From: a virus
Length of the DNA: 34,897 bases
Direction: 5' to 3' (one strand)
Virus record (IMG/VR): IMGVR_UViG_3300010885_006637
Location: 1-34,897 of that record
Part shown: positions 9,337 to 30,325 of the stretch, in pieces
Layout of the letters: each line of letters opens with the position of its first letter
Position numbering within the stretch: the first letter of the stretch is position 1
Notes under the pieces: model-generated
What the model saw: the letters and a program-made list of their open reading frames with translations, nothing else
Database searches by the model: none
Told to the model about the DNA's origin: nothing
Position numbers and translations under genes: made by a program

Positions 9337-9578
9337 GCAGTTCGCCACACGCGAATGCCTAGGTGTCCTTCTTTCTCACAGGTAAATATCTTCACCCTGA
9401 CGCGTGCTTTCTTAGAGGCAATGTCTGCTGCATACATCATCTGGGCAGGGCGCAGTGTGGGGATAAAGAAACTTTCCCCAACCGCCATATAGTCATACGG
9501 GAAAATCCACTCTGGCTCTTCAGTCAGTTTCTCCATCTCCGCTGAAGAAGGTATCTGGGATTTCGGTGGCAAAGACAT
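9333..9578 (-). CDS. Small conserved-looking phage protein, function unknown
   Basis: 81 residues with no recognised domain. It has an aromatic-rich middle (EWIFPYDYMAVGESFFIPT) and a Lys/Arg-rich end (KKARVRVKIFT...GIRVWRTA), suggesting a small beta-rich fold. It is the last gene of the leftward cluster. Its first 59 nt overlap the 3' end of the primase-helicase gene in another frame, and its stop TAG shares the palindrome CTAG with the stop of the opposing 2064-aa gene. There is no clear Shine-Dalgarno before the first ATG, and ATG 9536 is an alternative start. Translation coupled to the primase-helicase is likely. Function unknown. Confidence 0.6.
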   Translation of the reverse strand: MSLPPKSQIPSSAEMEKLTEEPEWIFPYDYMAVGESFFIPTLRPAQMMYAADIASKKARVRVKIFTCEKEGHLGIRVWRTA

Positions 9579-12378
9579 AAGTGTTCACATTCATATTTTT
9601 ATCAAGGATACTCAACGCTTGCTTCCATCCAGCGTCAAGGCGCGACTTCTTAACTTCAATAAGAATATTTCTTTCTTTCATGTTTTGTTCAAACTCTCGT
9701 GAACTAACATTCTTATCCGTCAGGTATTTTTTAAACTCCGTCGTAGATATAGTTACTAACCCTGTCGCTAAGTCTATTCGCCCTACAAGGCTAGTGCGTG
9801 GCTCCATCGTAACTTTGCCGTCGTTAATGCCCAAGAAGCCCGTGTAGTATTTATTGATGAAGTCACCAACCAACGCTGAGTGATCTGTCTCTCCAAGGGT
9901 AACTACCTTGTCGCGTATGTTAATCATCTCACTGCATACCTTCTCGTAGATACGGTTCAAGTCATAATCAATGATGCCAAACTCATTACCTATCACACCG
10001 CCTGTCATAGCTGCGCCAATAATGTTCTCGTAGAAACGGTAGATCGCGTCGTTGCCAAAGTCTTTCTTAAACCGTTCAATCCACTCTTTCACTATGTCCG
10101 TCAGCGCCGCTTCACCTGTTGAGAAGTAAGCTGGTATAAGTTTGCGTCCTGCATGACCATAGTTGTACTTGAACGCATCAAACACCTTCGGGCCAAAGTC
10201 TGGCTCGTCAATCAACAGCCGTGGTTTCATTACAAGAAACTCAATCATACGTGCCATCTCACCTGTAGCCATAGAGTTGTTGGACATAATCATATCCAGT
10301 AGCGGCATGTTACAAGTCATCATGGCAATGGACGATGCTAAGAGTTCATGCTCTCGCTCAGCGTTAATCGACCCCTGCATCCTGATCTTAGCTTTACCCT
10401 GAGAGATAGCGTGAACCATCTTGCTTAGCTCTTCTATCTTGCGGGTATGCGCTTCATCAACGCCGAACGCTGCGTTCTTCAATGTGACGTACCGCTGATT
10501 CAAACCATTGTTTGTCGCATCGAACACTGAGATACCCACGGGGTTACACCAAATACTTAAGTTGGCGTACAGCGCTCCCGTCTTACCGTTGCCTGATTTA
10601 CCTGTATAACTAACGATAGCGCCCGGCGTAGACGTCAACGGCATCAACGGTGAACCCAAGCCAATCAACGTACCAAACGCGTGCATTTCCATCGACGGGC
10701 GGTTCAACTGTTGAGCAGACTCCTGCCAGCGCTCAAAGGTTCCCTTCGGCTCAAAGTGTTTCGATACACTCTTAACCATAGGTGAGGCGGGCGTTTGAAC
10801 AATCGTTCCGTTTGATCTAATTAAATGATTGCCGATGACATACTCTCGGCCCAACCGCTCGTCGCCTATTACTTCTGTCCAGCCCATCTGCATCTGCATT
10901 AACTCAGCTTCTGCCTGTGTTTGTAGGTAGTGACCCCATTTCATGATATATCCCATGATATGCACCAATTTATCTGCGTTACCTGTAACGCCCATAAACC
11001 CAATAGCTTTCTTAAACTCGTCAGACGCATTCAAACTCCTAGTAGTCACCATGAAATCGCGCGGCGCATCTTTAGGCAACAGAAGACGCATCATTAATAT
11101 CTCGCCGTCAGCTTTGCTAAACATCCTACGTATAGGAAACAACTCATGCGGATAGATAAGCTGCGGGTCTTGCTCTTTCTTATTACCCTTCTTGTCTAAC
11201 TTAGGCGGCGGCTGATAGTAGATACCGCCTGACTCACCTCTAAAGTATGGGTATAGCGCTTGCGGGTGATCTGGTATTACGTTTGACGGAATACCTTCGG
11301 TATTCGTTTGCTCCCGAACTGCGTCCTCTTTAGGAGCTTGCGCGATTTTGATAATTCGTCCAAGTGCGAGTGGGTTGGTAATCTTTCCTCTGTGTTCGCA
11401 GGTATCGCAGATTCCGGGGTTTTCATTGTCAAATGTGATGCAAGAATATGGCTTTCCTTGGCGCAATGTTGCCTTGCGTTCCGTATCTGAAAATGAATAT
11501 TTGGGGTAGTCTTCGGATAGTTTGTGGATTGATTCATCGCGATCCACGCAATGTTGGGCAATAGAGAGTACGGCAGTCCACATTGGTTCTGGTAGCACCG
11601 CAGAGTTTTCAATAGCCCATCTAATTTGTCCGCATCCATCTCCTTCGAGGCTTCTAATTGCGATTTTTTCAAAGCGTGTCTCCTGATTGTCCAGCTTCAT
11701 CAATGCTTTAGTATCGTCATCCAACCCTTTGGGCAGGTTCTTTAAGATTTCTGCTGGCGTCTCTTCTACTATGCCTAAGAACTCTTTGAACTCATCAAAC
11801 GAATATACCGGCAGATCATCCGATATAACCTCACATTTACTCGGTGGAGTTGTCTTATAGTTGAACGTATCAGGGCAACGCATGATGCGCGCCATGTCTG
11901 CCGTAACAACTGGGTCAATGAACAGATCATTATCGATACACAGTGCTTTGAACTTTTCGGCGTAGGGCTTCCACTCCGCAGCAGGGATGTCCCGATCAAA
12001 TAACCAGTAGGCATGTATGCCTGTACCGGAATCGATGATAACAGGGGGAGGTAAATCAACTCGTGGGATGAAAGCGTGTAATGAAACGAGAGCATCCCCT
12101 TTACTATCGTATCCTCTTCCGAGAGCTGCTTTCCCTGCCCCAACATCGAGGTCAACGAAGAATGAACGTAGGAATTGCGCGTCCTCTGCCTTGCGGCTAT
12201 AACCGTCGAAGGAAGCAAGGGCCACATATACGTTTGCTTCTTCCAATTCAAACTGTCTTGCAATAGCTTCAACATCATCTATAGACTCCGCAAATTTCTG
12301 TGTAATTCTTTTATCTAACTTAGCTACACAGTAAACGCCCTGCGAAGGCAATGCTTTCTCGTAAAATTGTTTTATCAT
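9520..12378 (-). CDS. Bifunctional primase-helicase (AEP-like primase plus DUF927/SF3-like ATPase)
   Basis: 952 residues. The N-terminal third fits an archaeo-eukaryotic-type primase/polymerase: D-L-D at 76-78 within FFVDLDVG, a G-T-G-I-H-A-Y-W motif near 118-125, and a D-P...D...RIMRCPDTFNYK block at 155-175. Cysteines 313, 324 and 327 with H329 form a zinc-ribbon-like cluster. The C-terminal half holds a P-loop GKSGNGKT at 593-600 and a Walker B-like FGVDEAH at about 638-643, followed by a 'T-C-N-M' sensor-like segment. This order fits phage primase-helicases that start and drive fork movement. ATG 12378 has only a weak ribosome site, and a stable hairpin lies just upstream, so translation may be regulated. 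Partners are the polymerase, ssDNA-binding protein and helicase in the same operon. Confidence 0.85.
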   Translation of the reverse strand: MIKQFYEKALPSQGVYCVAKLDKRITQKFAESIDDVEAIARQFELEEANVYVALASFDGYSRKAEDAQFLRSFFVDLDVGAGKAALGRGYDSKGDALVSLHAFIPRVDLPPPVIIDSGTGIHAYWLFDRDIPAAEWKPYAEKFKALCIDNDLFIDPVVTADMARIMRCPDTFNYKTTPPSKCEVISDDLPVYSFDEFKEFLGIVEETPAEILKNLPKGLDDDTKALMKLDNQETRFEKIAIRSLEGDGCGQIRWAIENSAVLPEPMWTAVLSIAQHCVDRDESIHKLSEDYPKYSFSDTERKATLRQGKPYSCITFDNENPGICDTCEHRGKITNPLALGRIIKIAQAPKEDAVREQTNTEGIPSNVIPDHPQALYPYFRGESGGIYYQPPPKLDKKGNKKEQDPQLIYPHELFPIRRMFSKADGEILMMRLLLPKDAPRDFMVTTRSLNASDEFKKAIGFMGVTGNADKLVHIMGYIMKWGHYLQTQAEAELMQMQMGWTEVIGDERLGREYVIGNHLIRSNGTIVQTPASPMVKSVSKHFEPKGTFERWQESAQQLNRPSMEMHAFGTLIGLGSPLMPLTSTPGAIVSYTGKSGNGKTGALYANLSIWCNPVGISVFDATNNGLNQRYVTLKNAAFGVDEAHTRKIEELSKMVHAISQGKAKIRMQGSINAEREHELLASSIAMMTCNMPLLDMIMSNNSMATGEMARMIEFLVMKPRLLIDEPDFGPKVFDAFKYNYGHAGRKLIPAYFSTGEAALTDIVKEWIERFKKDFGNDAIYRFYENIIGAAMTGGVIGNEFGIIDYDLNRIYEKVCSEMINIRDKVVTLGETDHSALVGDFINKYYTGFLGINDGKVTMEPRTSLVGRIDLATGLVTISTTEFKKYLTDKNVSSREFEQNMKERNILIEVKKSRLDAGWKQALSILDKNMNVNTYVFATEIPDTFFSGDGETD

Positions 12379-12511: not shown

Positions 12512-12826
12512 TTAAATCGGCTTACCAATCATGTCTTCAATATATGCTTTGGCTTCCTTCACAGTCTTAGCAGGTAGTACTCCCTCTGCTAAATCTTTCT
12601 CTACTAGCCTGATGAAAGCCAAAGCTATATCTTCATTCTTACCACGCAGAACTGCGCCGCGAAACCAATTATGAACTGTTGCCCGAGATACTTCTAACGC
12701 TACAGCTACGTACTTAGCAGGAAGGTTTGCTTGTACACAAAACTTTGCCAACTTATAGCCAACGCGATAAGTATCATCTGCTTCATCAAGTCCACTTAAA
12801 AACTTAGTACTGTAAGGCCGCGACAT
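12512..12826 (-). CDS. Small helix-turn-helix DNA-binding protein
   Basis: 104 residues. The segment LPAKYVAVALEVSRATVHNW (about 35-54) has the form of a helix-turn-helix, with two short helices and a recognition helix starting S-R-A-T-V-H-N-W. The preceding residues (Y-R-V-G-Y-K-L-A-K-F-C) would be the first helix. The rest is helical with no catalytic motif. ATG 12826 has a strong AAGGGGGA ribosome site. It lies between the ssDNA-binding-like gene and the primase-helicase, so it could be a replication initiator accessory or a transcriptional regulator. The sequence does not decide which. It is a candidate binder of the palindromic elements at 28881, 29491 and 30357, by inference only. Confidence 0.6.
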   Translation of the reverse strand: MSRPYSTKFLSGLDEADDTYRVGYKLAKFCVQANLPAKYVAVALEVSRATVHNWFRGAVLRGKNEDIALAFIRLVEKDLAEGVLPAKTVKEAKAYIEDMIGKPI

Positions 12827-12834
12827 AATCCCCC

Positions 12835-13671
12835 TTATTTCTTAGTCCACTTCTTAACTACTTCAGAAGCATCAGTTGCTTGAGCAGGTGCGCGCTTGGT
12901 AGTCTCTCTAACGGTAGGCTCTGCCACCGCTATATCTTCCTCCGTTGCTGTCTCTTTCTTCTTGTAGACAGAAAGCTTAATAGCAGATTCAGCGGCAGGA
13001 GTTTTACCCTGTGCGGTAACAGAGTCATAGTCTGCGGGATCAACTGCACCTGCTGGACTAAACAATACTTTAGGGAACTGCACCTTAGTATCGAACTGCA
13101 CCTTAGTTACCACACGCCCTTTACTGACGTTGTTATTGGCAAGCATTCCTATGTAGGACTTGAAAGGCCATCTACCATTTTCTTCCTTGCCGAAAGTCGA
13201 AGCTGCGGGGATAACGAATTCCAATACATCACCAGACGGGTCTTTTGGGAGGACAACAGCGGTACGCCATGACAGTTTGCATTTCGCACCAACACCGGAA
13301 TCGTTCGAGCCTTTCGCGGAATTGGGACACACATCGCACGTAGGTGCACAAGGATGCTCAACATCTTCGTCAGGCTTAACGGAGTCGTTTGACCAACAGA
13401 CGGGGGATGCGACTTTTCCTTCTTCATACGTACCCTCATAGCATTGACGTGACGCGCTATGCGCCATACGAACGAAAATCACATTCATGTGACGGTCTTC
13501 AATACTGCCTACTTCTTTACCGCCTACCATCTTACGGAATACACCGCCTTTGATAGAGAGACGCTTAGTTTGATTTGCACTGCCGCCAGCAACCGCTGCC
13601 GTGTCTTCATCGACACCGGTCTGAATCATCAAGGGATTGTTGGCGAGGATGGTTGCGAGTTCTGTACTCAT
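12835..13671 (-). CDS. Probable phage ssDNA-binding protein with cysteine cluster
   Basis: 278 residues. After an N-terminal leader, residues 38-230 look beta-rich. A cysteine cluster at C92, C108, C112, C115 and C131 (P-C-A-P-T-C-D-V-C-P) suggests a zinc site. The C-terminus is low-complexity, with acidic runs then KKWTKK. Zinc-bearing OB-fold ssDNA-binding proteins of phages, gp32-like in role, have comparable composition and lie beside primase-helicase and helicase genes. The call rests mainly on this context and the cluster, not on a diagnostic motif. ATG 13671 has AAGGAA 6 nt upstream. The next gene starts 8 nt beyond its stop. Confidence 0.45.
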   Translation of the reverse strand: MSTELATILANNPLMIQTGVDEDTAAVAGGSANQTKRLSIKGGVFRKMVGGKEVGSIEDRHMNVIFVRMAHSASRQCYEGTYEEGKVASPVCWSNDSVKPDEDVEHPCAPTCDVCPNSAKGSNDSGVGAKCKLSWRTAVVLPKDPSGDVLEFVIPAASTFGKEENGRWPFKSYIGMLANNNVSKGRVVTKVQFDTKVQFPKVLFSPAGAVDPADYDSVTAQGKTPAAESAIKLSVYKKKETATEEDIAVAEPTVRETTKRAPAQATDASEVVKKWTKK

Positions 13672-23806: not shown

Positions 23807-25075
23807 TTATTTATTAAATTTAACCAACTTGCCTTTCGGCGGTTTGAAGTTCCGATTCTCCGTCACCAGCCACAGAGTATCGATGCCAGTTTCCCACCTT
23901 GGTTTATCTTCAACGTAGCCATCAGTAAAGATCACCAGACAATCCGGTGTGTACTTCTTATCTTTCAGGTAGTCCGACACGCACGACACCATAGTGCCGC
24001 CACCGCCCATTGGCTTAAGAATATCTTTGATGTTAGGTGAGTCACCTGCAAACACCTGCTCACCATGTACCTCTGTATCCCACCACAGTATTCTCACCGT
24101 GTCTGGCTTACACACATCACAGATCACCTGCAACTGATAAGCGAACGCGCCCAACTCCTCTGTGCCAATAGACCCAGACGTGTCGATGCTTACGCATACC
24201 TCAGTCAATGTCTCTGTGTCCTCGCTTGGTGCGTAAATGTCATTAGCCAAGAGATTGCGATTAAACCTACGCCATGTCAGCTCGTCCTTACCTCGCACGT
24301 TGTTAGATACAAAGTCGCGGAACTCGTCCTTCCAGTTGATCGGTATCTCCAATGACTGACTTATCTCACGCGGGATGTTAGCTCCGAGACGACCTGCCAA
24401 CATACCGCCCTCACGCAACGCCCGACCTACCTTCTCCTCGAACTCCTTCAACTCCTTGACATCTTTGCCATTGGCTCCGGTCATGTCATGCTCATCGCTG
24501 TCCTGAACGGTGACTTGTTTGCCATTGATGTTTATGACTTCACCCTGACCTGAACCGTTAGTCTCATCACCATCGTCAGACTCACAGCTCCCACCTCCGC
24601 CACCACTACCTTTCTGCTTACGTTGTGGATTCTGTTTCTGTAGTTCGTTGTATATCTCACGCACCGCCCACCCATCGAACTTGTGATCTATGATTGCGCT
24701 CTCAGGTAACTTGCACAATGGTTGCGATTGATGCTGACCTTTGATGTTATCGATGATGTTGTTAACGACTATATCCATCGACACGTTAGCTAGAACGTGA
24801 TCCTCCTTCATCAAGTCTTTATGTCTGTGGATATGTAGTAACGCTACATGCAGATTCTCATGCAGCACCACCGCCCTCGCCTCCTCGTCAGACAAGGTAG
24901 CCATAAACTCCTTGCCATAACGCTTGTTCTCACCATCGGTGTATGCGGTAGGTATACCTTCAACCACTTCGCTGTTACCCATCAGCATCACGCTACCATA
25001 CAACGCTGTCTCTGGATGACGCATCATGATGATGTGATTCTTCTTCAGTCTTTCTTCGTCTGATAGATATGACAT
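23807..25075 (-). CDS. HExxH metallopeptidase-like plus VWA protein (DUF2201/CobT-like)
   Basis: 422 residues in two parts. The N-terminal part has VVLHENLHVALLHIHRH, an HExxH zinc motif at 72-76, in the arrangement of DUF2201 N-terminal domains. A Gly/Ser/Asp-rich linker spans about 155-180. The C-terminal part is VWA-like with a full MIDAS start, V-S-I-D298-T-S-G-S302, a later Thr in GGGGTMV, and F-T-D-G-Y at 383-387. VWA proteins of this kind work with MoxR-family AAA+ ATPases; that ATPase is encoded 14 nt upstream. Whether the zinc site is proteolytic cannot be told from sequence. Confidence 0.85.
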   Translation of the reverse strand: MSYLSDEERLKKNHIIMMRHPETALYGSVMLMGNSEVVEGIPTAYTDGENKRYGKEFMATLSDEEARAVVLHENLHVALLHIHRHKDLMKEDHVLANVSMDIVVNNIIDNIKGQHQSQPLCKLPESAIIDHKFDGWAVREIYNELQKQNPQRKQKGSGGGGGSCESDDGDETNGSGQGEVININGKQVTVQDSDEHDMTGANGKDVKELKEFEEKVGRALREGGMLAGRLGANIPREISQSLEIPINWKDEFRDFVSNNVRGKDELTWRRFNRNLLANDIYAPSEDTETLTEVCVSIDTSGSIGTEELGAFAYQLQVICDVCKPDTVRILWWDTEVHGEQVFAGDSPNIKDILKPMGGGGTMVSCVSDYLKDKKYTPDCLVIFTDGYVEDKPRWETGIDTLWLVTENRNFKPPKGKLVKFNK

Positions 25076-25089
25076 AATATTTTCCTAGG

Positions 25090-26226
25090 TTATAGATACT
25101 TGTAGTTGTCTTTAGTCCATGCCTTAACATCATCATTGTTAGCGGCAAGTTTAGTAGTGCGTTTATTACCCATCAACATAGTGAAGAATACTGACTGCAA
25201 CTCGCTGTGATTCATACGCTTGACGAACTTCATGTACTGAGACAACTCGTCCTGTGTTTGTAAGTCATCCACCGCGTTGAACATCATCATGCAAAGTGCA
25301 GCCATATCGTTTGGCATGGGTACACCCTCTGGGTTAGCAACCACGTCCTTAGTTTTAATAACCTGCGACTCCATCTCCATAAAGACAGACAACGCTTTCG
25401 CCGCCGCTAAACCGATTGTTCCTGCAAGTAACACTTCAGCCACCTGTGAACCCAAAACTTCGCGGTTAGTTACGATACGATTGGCTTTGTACAACGAACG
25501 TGGTGACACGAACGACACCGCCTGTCCTGCCTTGGTTGGATTAAATATAAACTCATTGTTCTCTTGCCCACCATCCATGTATGACGCTAAGCAACGTGGA
25601 TTCATAGCAACGAACGAACGCAAAGTAACTGACACGCCATTCTCACCCGCCCAGATATTCCAACGCCGCGCATCGGGTTTCTCCATACGGAATAAACAAA
25701 TACGATTACCCTGATGTGCCTGTACGAAATCACCTACGCCATCGCTTCCGTTGTTACTTGTTCCAAACACCATAGAACCCATAGGTAACGATACGTCACC
25801 CACCATACGTTCTAGCATTAGTCGAGTAAACAACACACCCATAGACTTAGGAACTTTGAACGCCTCGTCAAGCATTATGATCTTGGGCTTGTCGCTGCCC
25901 ATGTTGAACAATGAACCAACGTACTGCTCAAGTGCCTTTGTTGCATGGTTAGGAATAGTAGCTGCTATGTCCATGTGATCTTTTGCCGGACAGTCAACGT
26001 AAATATATTCGTACTTGTCCGATGCGAACACGTCTTTGGGTTTGCGCCACTTGTCGCCGTTTTTCTCAGCGATCAGCTTTAAGACAGAAGTCTTGCCAAC
26101 TCCGGGTTCACTCACTATGATTGGTGTGATGTGAGAATCTTCTCCCTCAACTGTCTGGGATAGGATTGGAACAACTGTCGCCGCTTGGTCGATAGTGATT
26201 GTTTGTGTGAAGTTTATTTTTGACAT
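25090..26226 (-). CDS. MoxR-family AAA+ ATPase
   Basis: 378 residues. Walker A EPGVGKTS at 40-47, Walker B KIIMLDEA at 115-122, sensor-1 GTSNNG at 155-160 and an R-I-C-L-F-R-M strand soon after are all in MoxR-like spacing; a helical C-terminal lid follows. MoxR ATPases remodel or activate partner complexes and are usually encoded beside a VWA protein, as here. ATG 26226 has AAAGG 8 nt upstream. The gene lies between a DUF3150-like gene and the HExxH-VWA gene, forming a compact cassette. The substrate in this phage is unknown. Confidence 0.85.
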   Translation of the reverse strand: MSKINFTQTITIDQAATVVPILSQTVEGEDSHITPIIVSEPGVGKTSVLKLIAEKNGDKWRKPKDVFASDKYEYIYVDCPAKDHMDIAATIPNHATKALEQYVGSLFNMGSDKPKIIMLDEAFKVPKSMGVLFTRLMLERMVGDVSLPMGSMVFGTSNNGSDGVGDFVQAHQGNRICLFRMEKPDARRWNIWAGENGVSVTLRSFVAMNPRCLASYMDGGQENNEFIFNPTKAGQAVSFVSPRSLYKANRIVTNREVLGSQVAEVLLAGTIGLAAAKALSVFMEMESQVIKTKDVVANPEGVPMPNDMAALCMMMFNAVDDLQTQDELSQYMKFVKRMNHSELQSVFFTMLMGNKRTTKLAANNDDVKAWTKDNYKYL

Positions 26227-28880: not shown

Positions 28881-28910
28881 AATTCAGGTATGCCTGAAGT
28901 GTTAAATAAC
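28881..28910 (-). promoter_or_regulatory. Palindromic element copy 1 (operator candidate)
   Basis: A 30-bp element with near-palindrome TTCAGGTATGCCTGAA (28883-28898) and a GTGTTAAATAAC flank; 26 of 30 bases match copy 2 at 29491. It lies in the leader between the strong leftward promoter and ATG 28863, where a bound protein would act as roadblock or the RNA could fold. Confidence 0.6.
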
Positions 28911-28960: not shown

Positions 28961-28989
28961 ATTATACCATTATTTGACATATAAGTCAA
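28961..28989 (-). promoter_or_regulatory. Strong sigma70-like promoter of the leftward operon
   Basis: On the minus strand TTGACT (28984-28989), a 17-nt spacer and a consensus TATAAT (28961-28966). The start point is predicted near 28954, about 90 nt before ATG 28863. A TTGAC-N6-GTCAA inverted repeat (28974-28989) overlaps the -35 and spacer, so a repressor could block it. Confidence 0.75.
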
Positions 28990-29007
28990 CCTAGTTGTGT
29001 GAGACTT

Positions 29008-29382
29008 TTGTTCTGGGTGTGTAGGGAAAACCGGAACAAGAATTTACTACATGTATTAAGAATGAGGGGTTTTGTTCTGGTTTTTTTGTGTTGCCGGAAC
29101 AGTAAGAAATGGCTGAAATGCCGCGTAAACACTAGGTTTTCTTCTTTTATTTATTTAAGTATCTACTATATATAGTGTTCTGTTCTGGGAGAGAAAAAGG
29201 GTATGGCTGGCTGGGAGTGTTTTTTGATGCACTTGCCGCGAAGGACGTTCAACCTGAAAAAAACACTGTTTTTGCCCATACCCCCTAAAATGACCAGAAC
29301 ACCGGAACAAGTGCGTAAGTCGTTGATTTAAAAGGCGAAATCCTGTTCCGTAGCCAGAACAACAACACAGTTGTCAGAACAG
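29008..29382. repeat. Array of about ten CCRGAACAA-type 9-bp repeats
   Basis: Plus-orientation copies: 29031-29039, 29094-29102, 29294-29301, 29302-29310, 29354-29362, 29374-29382. Inverse copies (TTGTTCTGG type): 29008-29016, 29072-29080, 29180-29188, and 29343-29350 (8 bp). Two inverted pairs (29008/29031 and 29072/29094) have 13-14 nt between arms and the same T/G asymmetry, TTCTGG left and CCGGAA right. Iteron-like binding sites or RNA hairpins are possible. Confidence 0.8.
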
Positions 29383-29490
29383 TTTTTAACCCCAATTACG
29401 TCATTTACACAAACGGTAGATGATAGGGCTAAAAAGTGTCGCCTAATTATATAACTAGCGCGTCTCTACGTTGGGCGTCATCTATGAGTT

Positions 29491-29520
29491 AATTCAGGTA
29501 TACCTGAAGTGTTATTTAGC
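29491..29520 (-). promoter_or_regulatory. Palindromic element copy 2 (operator candidate)
   Basis: A perfect 16-bp palindrome TTCAGGTATACCTGAA (29493-29508) with AA on the left and GTGTTATTTAGC on the right. It sits between the repeat array and the GC-rich palindromes. A TATAAT is present about 40 bp downstream on the minus strand (29448-29453), without a good -35 box, so activation by a bound protein is conceivable. Confidence 0.65.
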
Positions 29521-29531
29521 GGGCTTGGGTC

Positions 29532-29559
29532 AGCGCGTTCGCGCTTGCTCGCGCGCGAG
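29532..29559. repeat. Two adjacent GC-rich palindromes
   Basis: AGCGCGTTCGCGCT (29532-29545) is a perfect 14-nt palindrome, and CTCGCGCGCGAG (29548-29559) is a perfect 12-nt palindrome 2 nt away. They stand out against the AT-rich surroundings. They may be protein sites, cruciforms or an RNA structure. Confidence 0.7.
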
Positions 29560-29589
29560 GACAAACAACTGGTTTCAAATCGCAGGGCG

Positions 29590-29626: not shown

Positions 29627-30277
29627 TTACTTAGTCACTTCAAGTTTTACCTTGAAAGCTATGATCGCAGCGTCAAGTGCTTTGCTGTTAGCTGTTGGAT
29701 CATTACCGCGTGATTCAGCAGACTTGCATCGCGTTTTCAATGTATCAAGAGTCTTTTCAACGAATTCACCGAAAGACAATGTTGCTGCTCTTGTCTGCGA
29801 CTCTGGATTTCTTTCGCGTAATACTTTCTTAGCTGCTAACTTCAGATCAGCTAACCTGCCAGAGCAGTATTTATTGACGCGATCACGTAGATCATAAGTG
29901 ACGCGATACTTAGCAGGATCGTCGTTTTTCATCGCACCGATCTGCTGCTGACTATAAGAGAATGCAACAGCTACATTCAGCTTGTACTGCTCTTTCGGTG
30001 CGTCGCCCGATAATTGATCTAGTGGAATATAGTTACCATCAACTACACCGAATATAGTTTCAGCATACTTAGGCAACTCACTCGCACGTTGACGAAAGCC
30101 TTCATTCAGTTCGACCCTTGCTTCTGGTGGGCAATCTTCGGGAAAGCCTGCAATGTTATCCAGCGCCCATGCACCGTCTGCACGTATCGCGTCTGCACGC
30201 TTAGCGACGTTATAACCAAAGTCTGACAATGATTTGTAAGACTGCTCAAAAGATACTGCGGATTTTGCTTTTGACAT
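29627..30277 (-). CDS. 216-aa phage protein with its own promoter and terminator, function unknown
   Basis: ATG 30277 (MSKAKSAVSFEQSYKSLSD...) has AAGGTGA 6 nt upstream; the frame extends 3 codons to a GTG but that overlaps the ribosome site. The protein is helical and polar, with repeated basic-acidic segments (GFRQRASELPKYAE, RDRVNKYCSGRLADLKLAAKKVL) and a C-terminal helix rich in Ala and Lys. No membrane span or catalytic motif. It is monocistronic between a promoter with palindromic element copy 3 and a strong terminator, next to the repeat array. That isolation suits a regulator or an origin- or repeat-binding protein, an inference only. Confidence 0.7.
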   Translation of the reverse strand: MSKAKSAVSFEQSYKSLSDFGYNVAKRADAIRADGAWALDNIAGFPEDCPPEARVELNEGFRQRASELPKYAETIFGVVDGNYIPLDQLSGDAPKEQYKLNVAVAFSYSQQQIGAMKNDDPAKYRVTYDLRDRVNKYCSGRLADLKLAAKKVLRERNPESQTRAATLSFGEFVEKTLDTLKTRCKSAESRGNDPTANSKALDAAIIAFKVKLEVTK

Positions 30278-30325
30278 GATAGTCACCTTTCAAAATATCG
30301 GTGCTGAATTGCATCCGATAATTAA

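Follow-up and report, generated by a model that had tools for sequence, protein, structure and literature searches.

A conserved non-coding repeat array as a probable iteron-type replication origin in uncultured tailed phages

The window, that is, the whole stretch of 34,897 nucleotides analyzed here (IMG/VR record IMGVR_UViG_3300010885_006637), is a viral contig that carries the markers of a tailed phage: a terminase, a family A DNA polymerase, an SNF2-type helicase, a DUF927 primase-helicase, a MoxR-like ATPase, and a VWA-like DUF2201 protein. The terminase showed 48-52% identity to pelagiphages HTVC023P/HTVC027P and phage DSL-LC04. Isolates searched with the primase-helicase and with the helix-turn-helix (HTH) protein of the window included close relatives of neither, and searches of isolated phages with the array-region DNA, with the HTH protein, and with an early-operon protein of a relative carrying the TTGGAACA type of repeat returned no match. 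A search confined to tyrosine integrases (PF00589) found none in 15 long contigs, which speaks against a lysogeny operator. The array-bearing group is a large one of uncultured, probably lytic tailed phages of approximately 57-65 kb. Within the replication operon, a gene for a MoxR-like AAA ATPase lies beside that for a metallopeptidase/VWA-like DUF2201 protein (window 23807-26226), and this gene order behind the array is conserved.

The original prediction described about ten copies of a short motif in both orientations, with only chance matches elsewhere. The scan of the window detected 11 CRGAACA sites (Table 1), whereas the next densest 400 b held one copy. In the rest of the 34.9-kb window the word occurred at most once per 400 b, so that no other part approached the density of the array, and in 50 first-order random genomes it occurred at most three times per 400 b. 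When one mismatch was allowed, the 9-mer of the original prediction gave 29 matches compared with 14.3 expected (0/100 shuffles), and these were concentrated at the array. Positions 28990-29470 were covered by no ORF of 60 aa or longer, indicating that the array stretch is non-coding; it lies between the terminator of a 219-aa gene and a promoter facing the replication operon. The AT-rich stretch, the 12-bp palindrome, and the adjacent promoter were each found as described. Read in the direction of the operon, the terminator is followed by the GAAACCAGTT...CGCGCGC box, the palindrome, and the CATTTACC..GTAAATG dyad. Next come the outer sites and then the core, with the inner pair before it and the opposed inner pair behind it; the AT-rich tract, further sites, and the promoter complete the locus.

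Table 1. Features of the array locus and of the associated genes (window coordinates)
Feature	Position	Strand	Basis or remark
Putative iteron array, 11 CRGAACA sites	29009..29381	both	motif scan and layout of relatives
Array sites, minus strand (5)	starts 29009, 29073, 29176, 29181, 29344	-	
Array sites, plus strand (6)	starts 29032, 29095, 29295, 29303, 29355, 29375	+	
Inner same-strand pair, 8 bp apart	29295..29309	+	"minus minus" in operon direction, TTGTTCCGGTGTTCTGG
Opposed inner pair, 5 bp apart	29176..29187	-	operon direction CCAGAACAGAACA
AT-rich tract, 80% AT (20% GC), presumed DNA-unwinding element	29134..29178		base composition
12-bp palindrome ACTATATATAGT	29165-29176		in AT-rich tract
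Core between inner pairs	29199..29283		arms GGGTATGG (29199-29206) and CCATACCC (29276-29283)
Core 9-mer GGCAAGTGC	29229-29237	-	invariant in 10 aligned relatives
Sigma-70 promoter of replication operon, TTGACT-N17-TATAAT	28961..28989	-	consensus match
Dyad TTGACTTATATGTCAA, -35 side of promoter	28974-28989	-	
Palindrome TTCAGGCATACCTGAA in operon leader, just 5' of ribosome-binding site	28883..28898	-	spelling varies between phages
Second copy of palindrome, terminator side of array	29493..29508	-	
Conserved dyad box CATCTACCGTTTGTGTAAATG, outer edge of array	29402..29422	-	alignment of relatives
Conserved box TTGAAACCAGTTGTTTGTCCTCGCGCGC, after terminator of 219-aa gene	29551..29578	-	relatives
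219-aa protein, upstream of array	29627..30286	-	not required by array
104-aa XRE-like HTH protein, leading candidate array-binding initiator	12512..12826	-	
SSB-like protein (phrog_27714), replication core	12835..13671	-	SSB inferred from synteny and sequence
DUF927 primase-helicase, replication core	9520..12378	-	alternative candidate binder

The sigma-70 promoter element was present in 17 of 19 genomes, in most of them at a nearly fixed distance, and the dyad in its -35 region (TTGACNNATANGTCAA) was conserved. The core, with its arms (GGGTAT/ATACCC), had a folding z between about -1 and -2.4 in most members of the window's clade, and a moderately stable hairpin is predicted there; covariation was weak, with two-sided change in just 3 of 15 predicted pairs, and some relatives lacked pairing at several outer positions. 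A 14-18-bp palindrome preceded by TTAWWTAAC flanks the array on both sides in the window and in the relatives G001 (6061, 6684), L032, and G022. From phage to phage its copies change spelling together, and they do so more rapidly than the array word. One copy immediately precedes a ribosome-binding site, and the element resembles a 5'-leader hairpin signal. One further early-operon copy, the leader-hairpin variant TTATATAGCGGTTCAGG..CCTGAA, sits 39 nt before a start-like site (window 21476, minus strand; G001 14616; G004 48782). Where the 219-aa gene is tandemly duplicated, the box GAAACCAGTTNTTTGTCCTCGCGCGC behind its terminator is repeated as well (window 29551-29578; L029, L025, L020).

Relatives found through the 219-aa gene carried the array at the same place and with nearly the same spacing, and relatives with the same flanking genes kept it. 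Layout and position were common to the 19 tabulated genomes (the window and 18 others). Viral contigs were also scanned without reference to genes for a pair of same-strand sites spaced 8 bp, a gap of 93-124 bp, and a pair of opposed sites. Three patterns of this array core gave 18, at least 120, and 14 contigs, respectively; by a rough estimate, chance matches to the second pattern would number well below one, and each of the listed matches that were scanned lay in a cluster of 7-20 sites. Because the loci were found by them, the inner four sites are conserved by construction; the conservation of outer sites, flanking bases, and gene order is independent of the search pattern. The shared synteny was terS/terL, array, and replication operon. 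Near 150 array loci, terS (109/150) and terL (107/150) lay on one side, and the genes for a 71-aa, a 304-aa, and a MoxR protein lay on the other at 77-101 loci. The constant layout consisted of a same-strand pair 8 bp apart, a core of about 100 bp, an opposed pair, a peak of 80-85% AT, and more sites. The commonest same-strand spacing was 8 bp (97 arrays), and sites were generally 8-12 bp apart on the same strand and 23-24 bp apart in inverted pairs, that is, near one or two helical turns. In 89 arrays, AT content peaked at 0.82-0.85 next to the inner pair, and mean AT content was highest, at 0.85, next to the opposed inner pair; the side of this peak is set by construction because the arrays were oriented by AT content, and its height is unaffected.

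The word repeated in the array differed between classes of phages: the window's clade has CRGAACA, the commonest class has TTGGAACA, and others have [GT]TAGAACA, RGAACTTT, or TTGGAATTTT. Among 97 non-redundant arrays, within-genome agreement at bases -2, -1, and R was 0.31, compared with 0.13 after shuffling (shuffle maximum 0.145), and at the R position alone it was 0.84 compared with 0.53. In two genomes the layout was kept with a wholly different word, and in one of them, the 65.5-kb genome G020, all 11 copies of TTGGAATTT lay inside the array. On the TerL tree the word class changed about ten times, and well-supported branches carried at least four changes for the A class and eight for the G class. 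Whole arrays thus switched word several times. Since the copies within a genome change together, the pattern points to a sequence-specific DNA-binding protein drifting with its sites, and co-evolution with such a protein would be the simplest cause of the concerted change.

The likeliest candidate for an array-binding initiator is the 104-aa HTH protein, with the primase-helicase as the alternative. The AF2 model of the former (mean pLDDT 93.6) showed a small XRE-like domain extended by additional helices at the C terminus, and its fold neighbours were small HTH regulators, none of them significant. In 18 of 18 array genomes its gene was located between the SSB-like and primase-helicase genes, in the invariant order SNF2 helicase, 140-aa protein, SSB-like protein, HTH protein, and primase-helicase. 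None of the recognition-helix columns predicted the array word; Ser53 occurred in 8/9 AGAAC-class phages and 3/17 others (p = 0.0008), a post-hoc comparison with too few independent changes. Two binders had been suggested beforehand. The protein encoded at 12512-12826 is a sensible candidate by gene position, whereas that at 29627-30277, the 219-aa protein, was rejected as an obligatory binder, a clear homologue being clustered near just 72 of 150 arrays. No match to its predicted fold was found in the PDB, no relative in Pfam or PHROG, and none in a profile search of cellular genomes. It often occurs as two tandem diverged copies (G004, G007, G010, G012-G015, G022). If the HTH protein does read the array, this would assign a function to a role-less gene family in a conserved SSB-HTH-primase module.

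We interpret the array as an iteron-type replication origin, a reading to which we give a probability of roughly two in three. An iteron-type origin or a large protein-binding array had been proposed originally; the single cluster, the kept context, the AT tract, and the concerted word agree with this, but the accompanying suggestion about RNA and arm asymmetry does not stand. Repeated short sites were confined to one locus, with an AT-rich neighbour and helix-phased spacing, and the array heads the replication operon. A common theme of theta origins is that iteron binding opens an adjacent A+T-rich region (PMC5043065; PMC7466680). Bound sites, an AT tract, and a promoter for replication genes together form the standard theta-type design, which supports an origin here (PMC5043065; PMC7466680). 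Consensus DnaA boxes (TTATCCACA) were 11-fold enriched in array regions but occurred in just 8 of 97, and the window had none. Counting against an origin, terS and terL are equally constant neighbours of the array. The GC skew of the window reached a minimum at 28.5-31 kb, as a check suggested with the original prediction had looked for, but the coding strand switches at the same place, and in G001 the skew maximum fell at the end of the early operon. Because skew tracks gene direction in both the window and G001, it is not diagnostic of an origin and was discarded as proof.

In the mechanism that we propose, a phage-encoded initiator would bind the 9-bp sites as iterons, and the three site groups, in both orientations and 8-12 bp (same strand) or 23-24 bp (inverted) apart, would serve as the binding platform. 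The bound complex would stress and then melt the adjoining AT-rich tract, at which the phage primase-helicase would load. The sigma-70 promoter at the array edge would drive expression of the replication proteins, and its transcription may help opening, as in lambda. We infer that the binder is an initiator, that this initiator is the HTH protein encoded at 12512-12826, that the AT tract melts, and that the helicase loads there. More tentatively, the locus may represent a new system. In it, a 104-aa HTH protein outside the known initiator families would read a fast-changing word and recruit the DUF927 primase-helicase, and the invariant GGCAAGTGC of the core hairpin would act as a signal for loading on single strands or for priming. 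The initiator and its array would have changed specificity together on several occasions within a large group of uncultured phages; this fuller proposal is possible but doubtful. For such a group, which lacks a close isolate, the array indicates where replication probably starts, and more than 90 distinct site sets, in which the word changed as a block, make initiator-origin co-evolution directly testable.

Alternatively, a phage regulator could bind the array and enhance or repress the early promoter from upstream, with replication not starting there. About 20 bp separate the end of the array from the downstream -35 box of the operon promoter, and the fold of the candidate HTH protein is also used by repressors. 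However, none of the array sites reaches into the promoter, where a separate dyad is conserved, and 11-14 sites over nearly 400 bp with a fixed AT tract and a core exceed what a repressor needs. The result for tyrosine integrase (0/15) also weighs against this explanation, which we consider rather unlikely. The array might instead be a packaging (pac) site whose repeats are bound by the small terminase subunit. The P1 protein PacA binds hexamer clusters on either side of the P1 cut region, and the core is here flanked by two site clusters; moreover, terS lies about 1.3 kb from the array, and terS and terL are its commonest neighbours. Three of the 15 long contigs (at least 56 kb; L159, L167, and L240) began within 0.5 kb of the array, which exceeds the expectation for random ends and is a weak hint, but the other 12 ran through the array, at scattered positions. 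The array is also situated on the replication-operon side, abutting the operon promoter, and we know of no need for an 85% AT tract in pac sites, so that packaging is a distinctly unlikely role.

A structured RNA, or paired RNA stems formed by the inverted repeats, is a highly improbable reading and has been largely refuted. Both closest inverted pairs of the window do carry TTCTGG and CCGGAA, as had been noted, and these arms are G-U-compatible; in most members of the window's clade, the core was also moderately more stable in folding than its shuffled versions. The asymmetry, which had been taken as a hint of RNA function, was not kept: paired arms in relatives were G/G, A/A, or reversed (L016 419/442, L018 427/450 and 500/524, L026 445/468, L020 453/475, and L032 435/458), and most phages outside the window's clade had only G or only A at the R position. 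Because it varies among relatives, the A-left/G-right arrangement is a local variant, the clade accepting either base. In addition, the region had no Rfam match, covariation in the core was weak, and the sites share one word in both orientations without compensation. A plasmid-like centromere (parS/parC) of a phage-plasmid is hardly credible: parC-type layouts have, in general terms, multi-copy sites upstream of a promoter, as the array does, but no partition protein was seen among the window proteins examined, and the 15 long contigs gave no tyrosine integrase.

The closest isolate by primase was Pseudomonas phage Rollin (OR577172), at 25%. This very distant isolate has the same order of SSB-like protein, 104-aa HTH-like ORF, and primase-helicase at 32945-37768, and its intergenic stretches, read by eye, held no array of comparable kind. 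The satellite phage P4, with its origin and crr and its alpha protein, resembles the array phages in having short repeats with a similar GTTC core and in encoding a primase-helicase on the same element. In contrast to P4, the array phages have a single array with no second crr-like cluster (six genomes), and they encode a DUF927-type primase-helicase and a separate HTH protein. The lambdoid origin ori-lambda, with its O protein iterons (PMC7466680; PMC5043065), shares with the array repeated initiator sites, inverted symmetry, an adjoining AT-rich tract, nearby transcription, and an initiator gene beside a helicase-related gene. However, its iterons are four to six sites of 19 bp within the O gene, whereas the array comprises 11-14 short sites in three groups in non-coding DNA about 16 kb from the HTH gene. 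No relation between the 104-aa candidate and the initiator O was detected, and unlike lambda, the array phage encodes its own primase-helicase. The iteron plasmids P1, RK2, pSC101, and R6K (PMC5043065) likewise combine helically phased short repeats with an AT-rich tract; their DnaA box is shared with the arrays of some relatives and is absent in the window. The array differs from them in that its sites occur in both orientations around a structured core, and their Rep families were not found among the array-phage proteins examined. The PLE origin likewise belongs to a phage-type element, and its iterons are bound by an initiator that the element itself encodes, RepA (PMC7145576), which has no predicted primase or helicase activity; this initiator is of the RepA_N family, the iteron design is different, and no sequence relation was found. 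The iteron-type origin is already known as a kind; none of the described families compared here matches the array, the phage group, the three-part inverted layout, or the candidate initiator.
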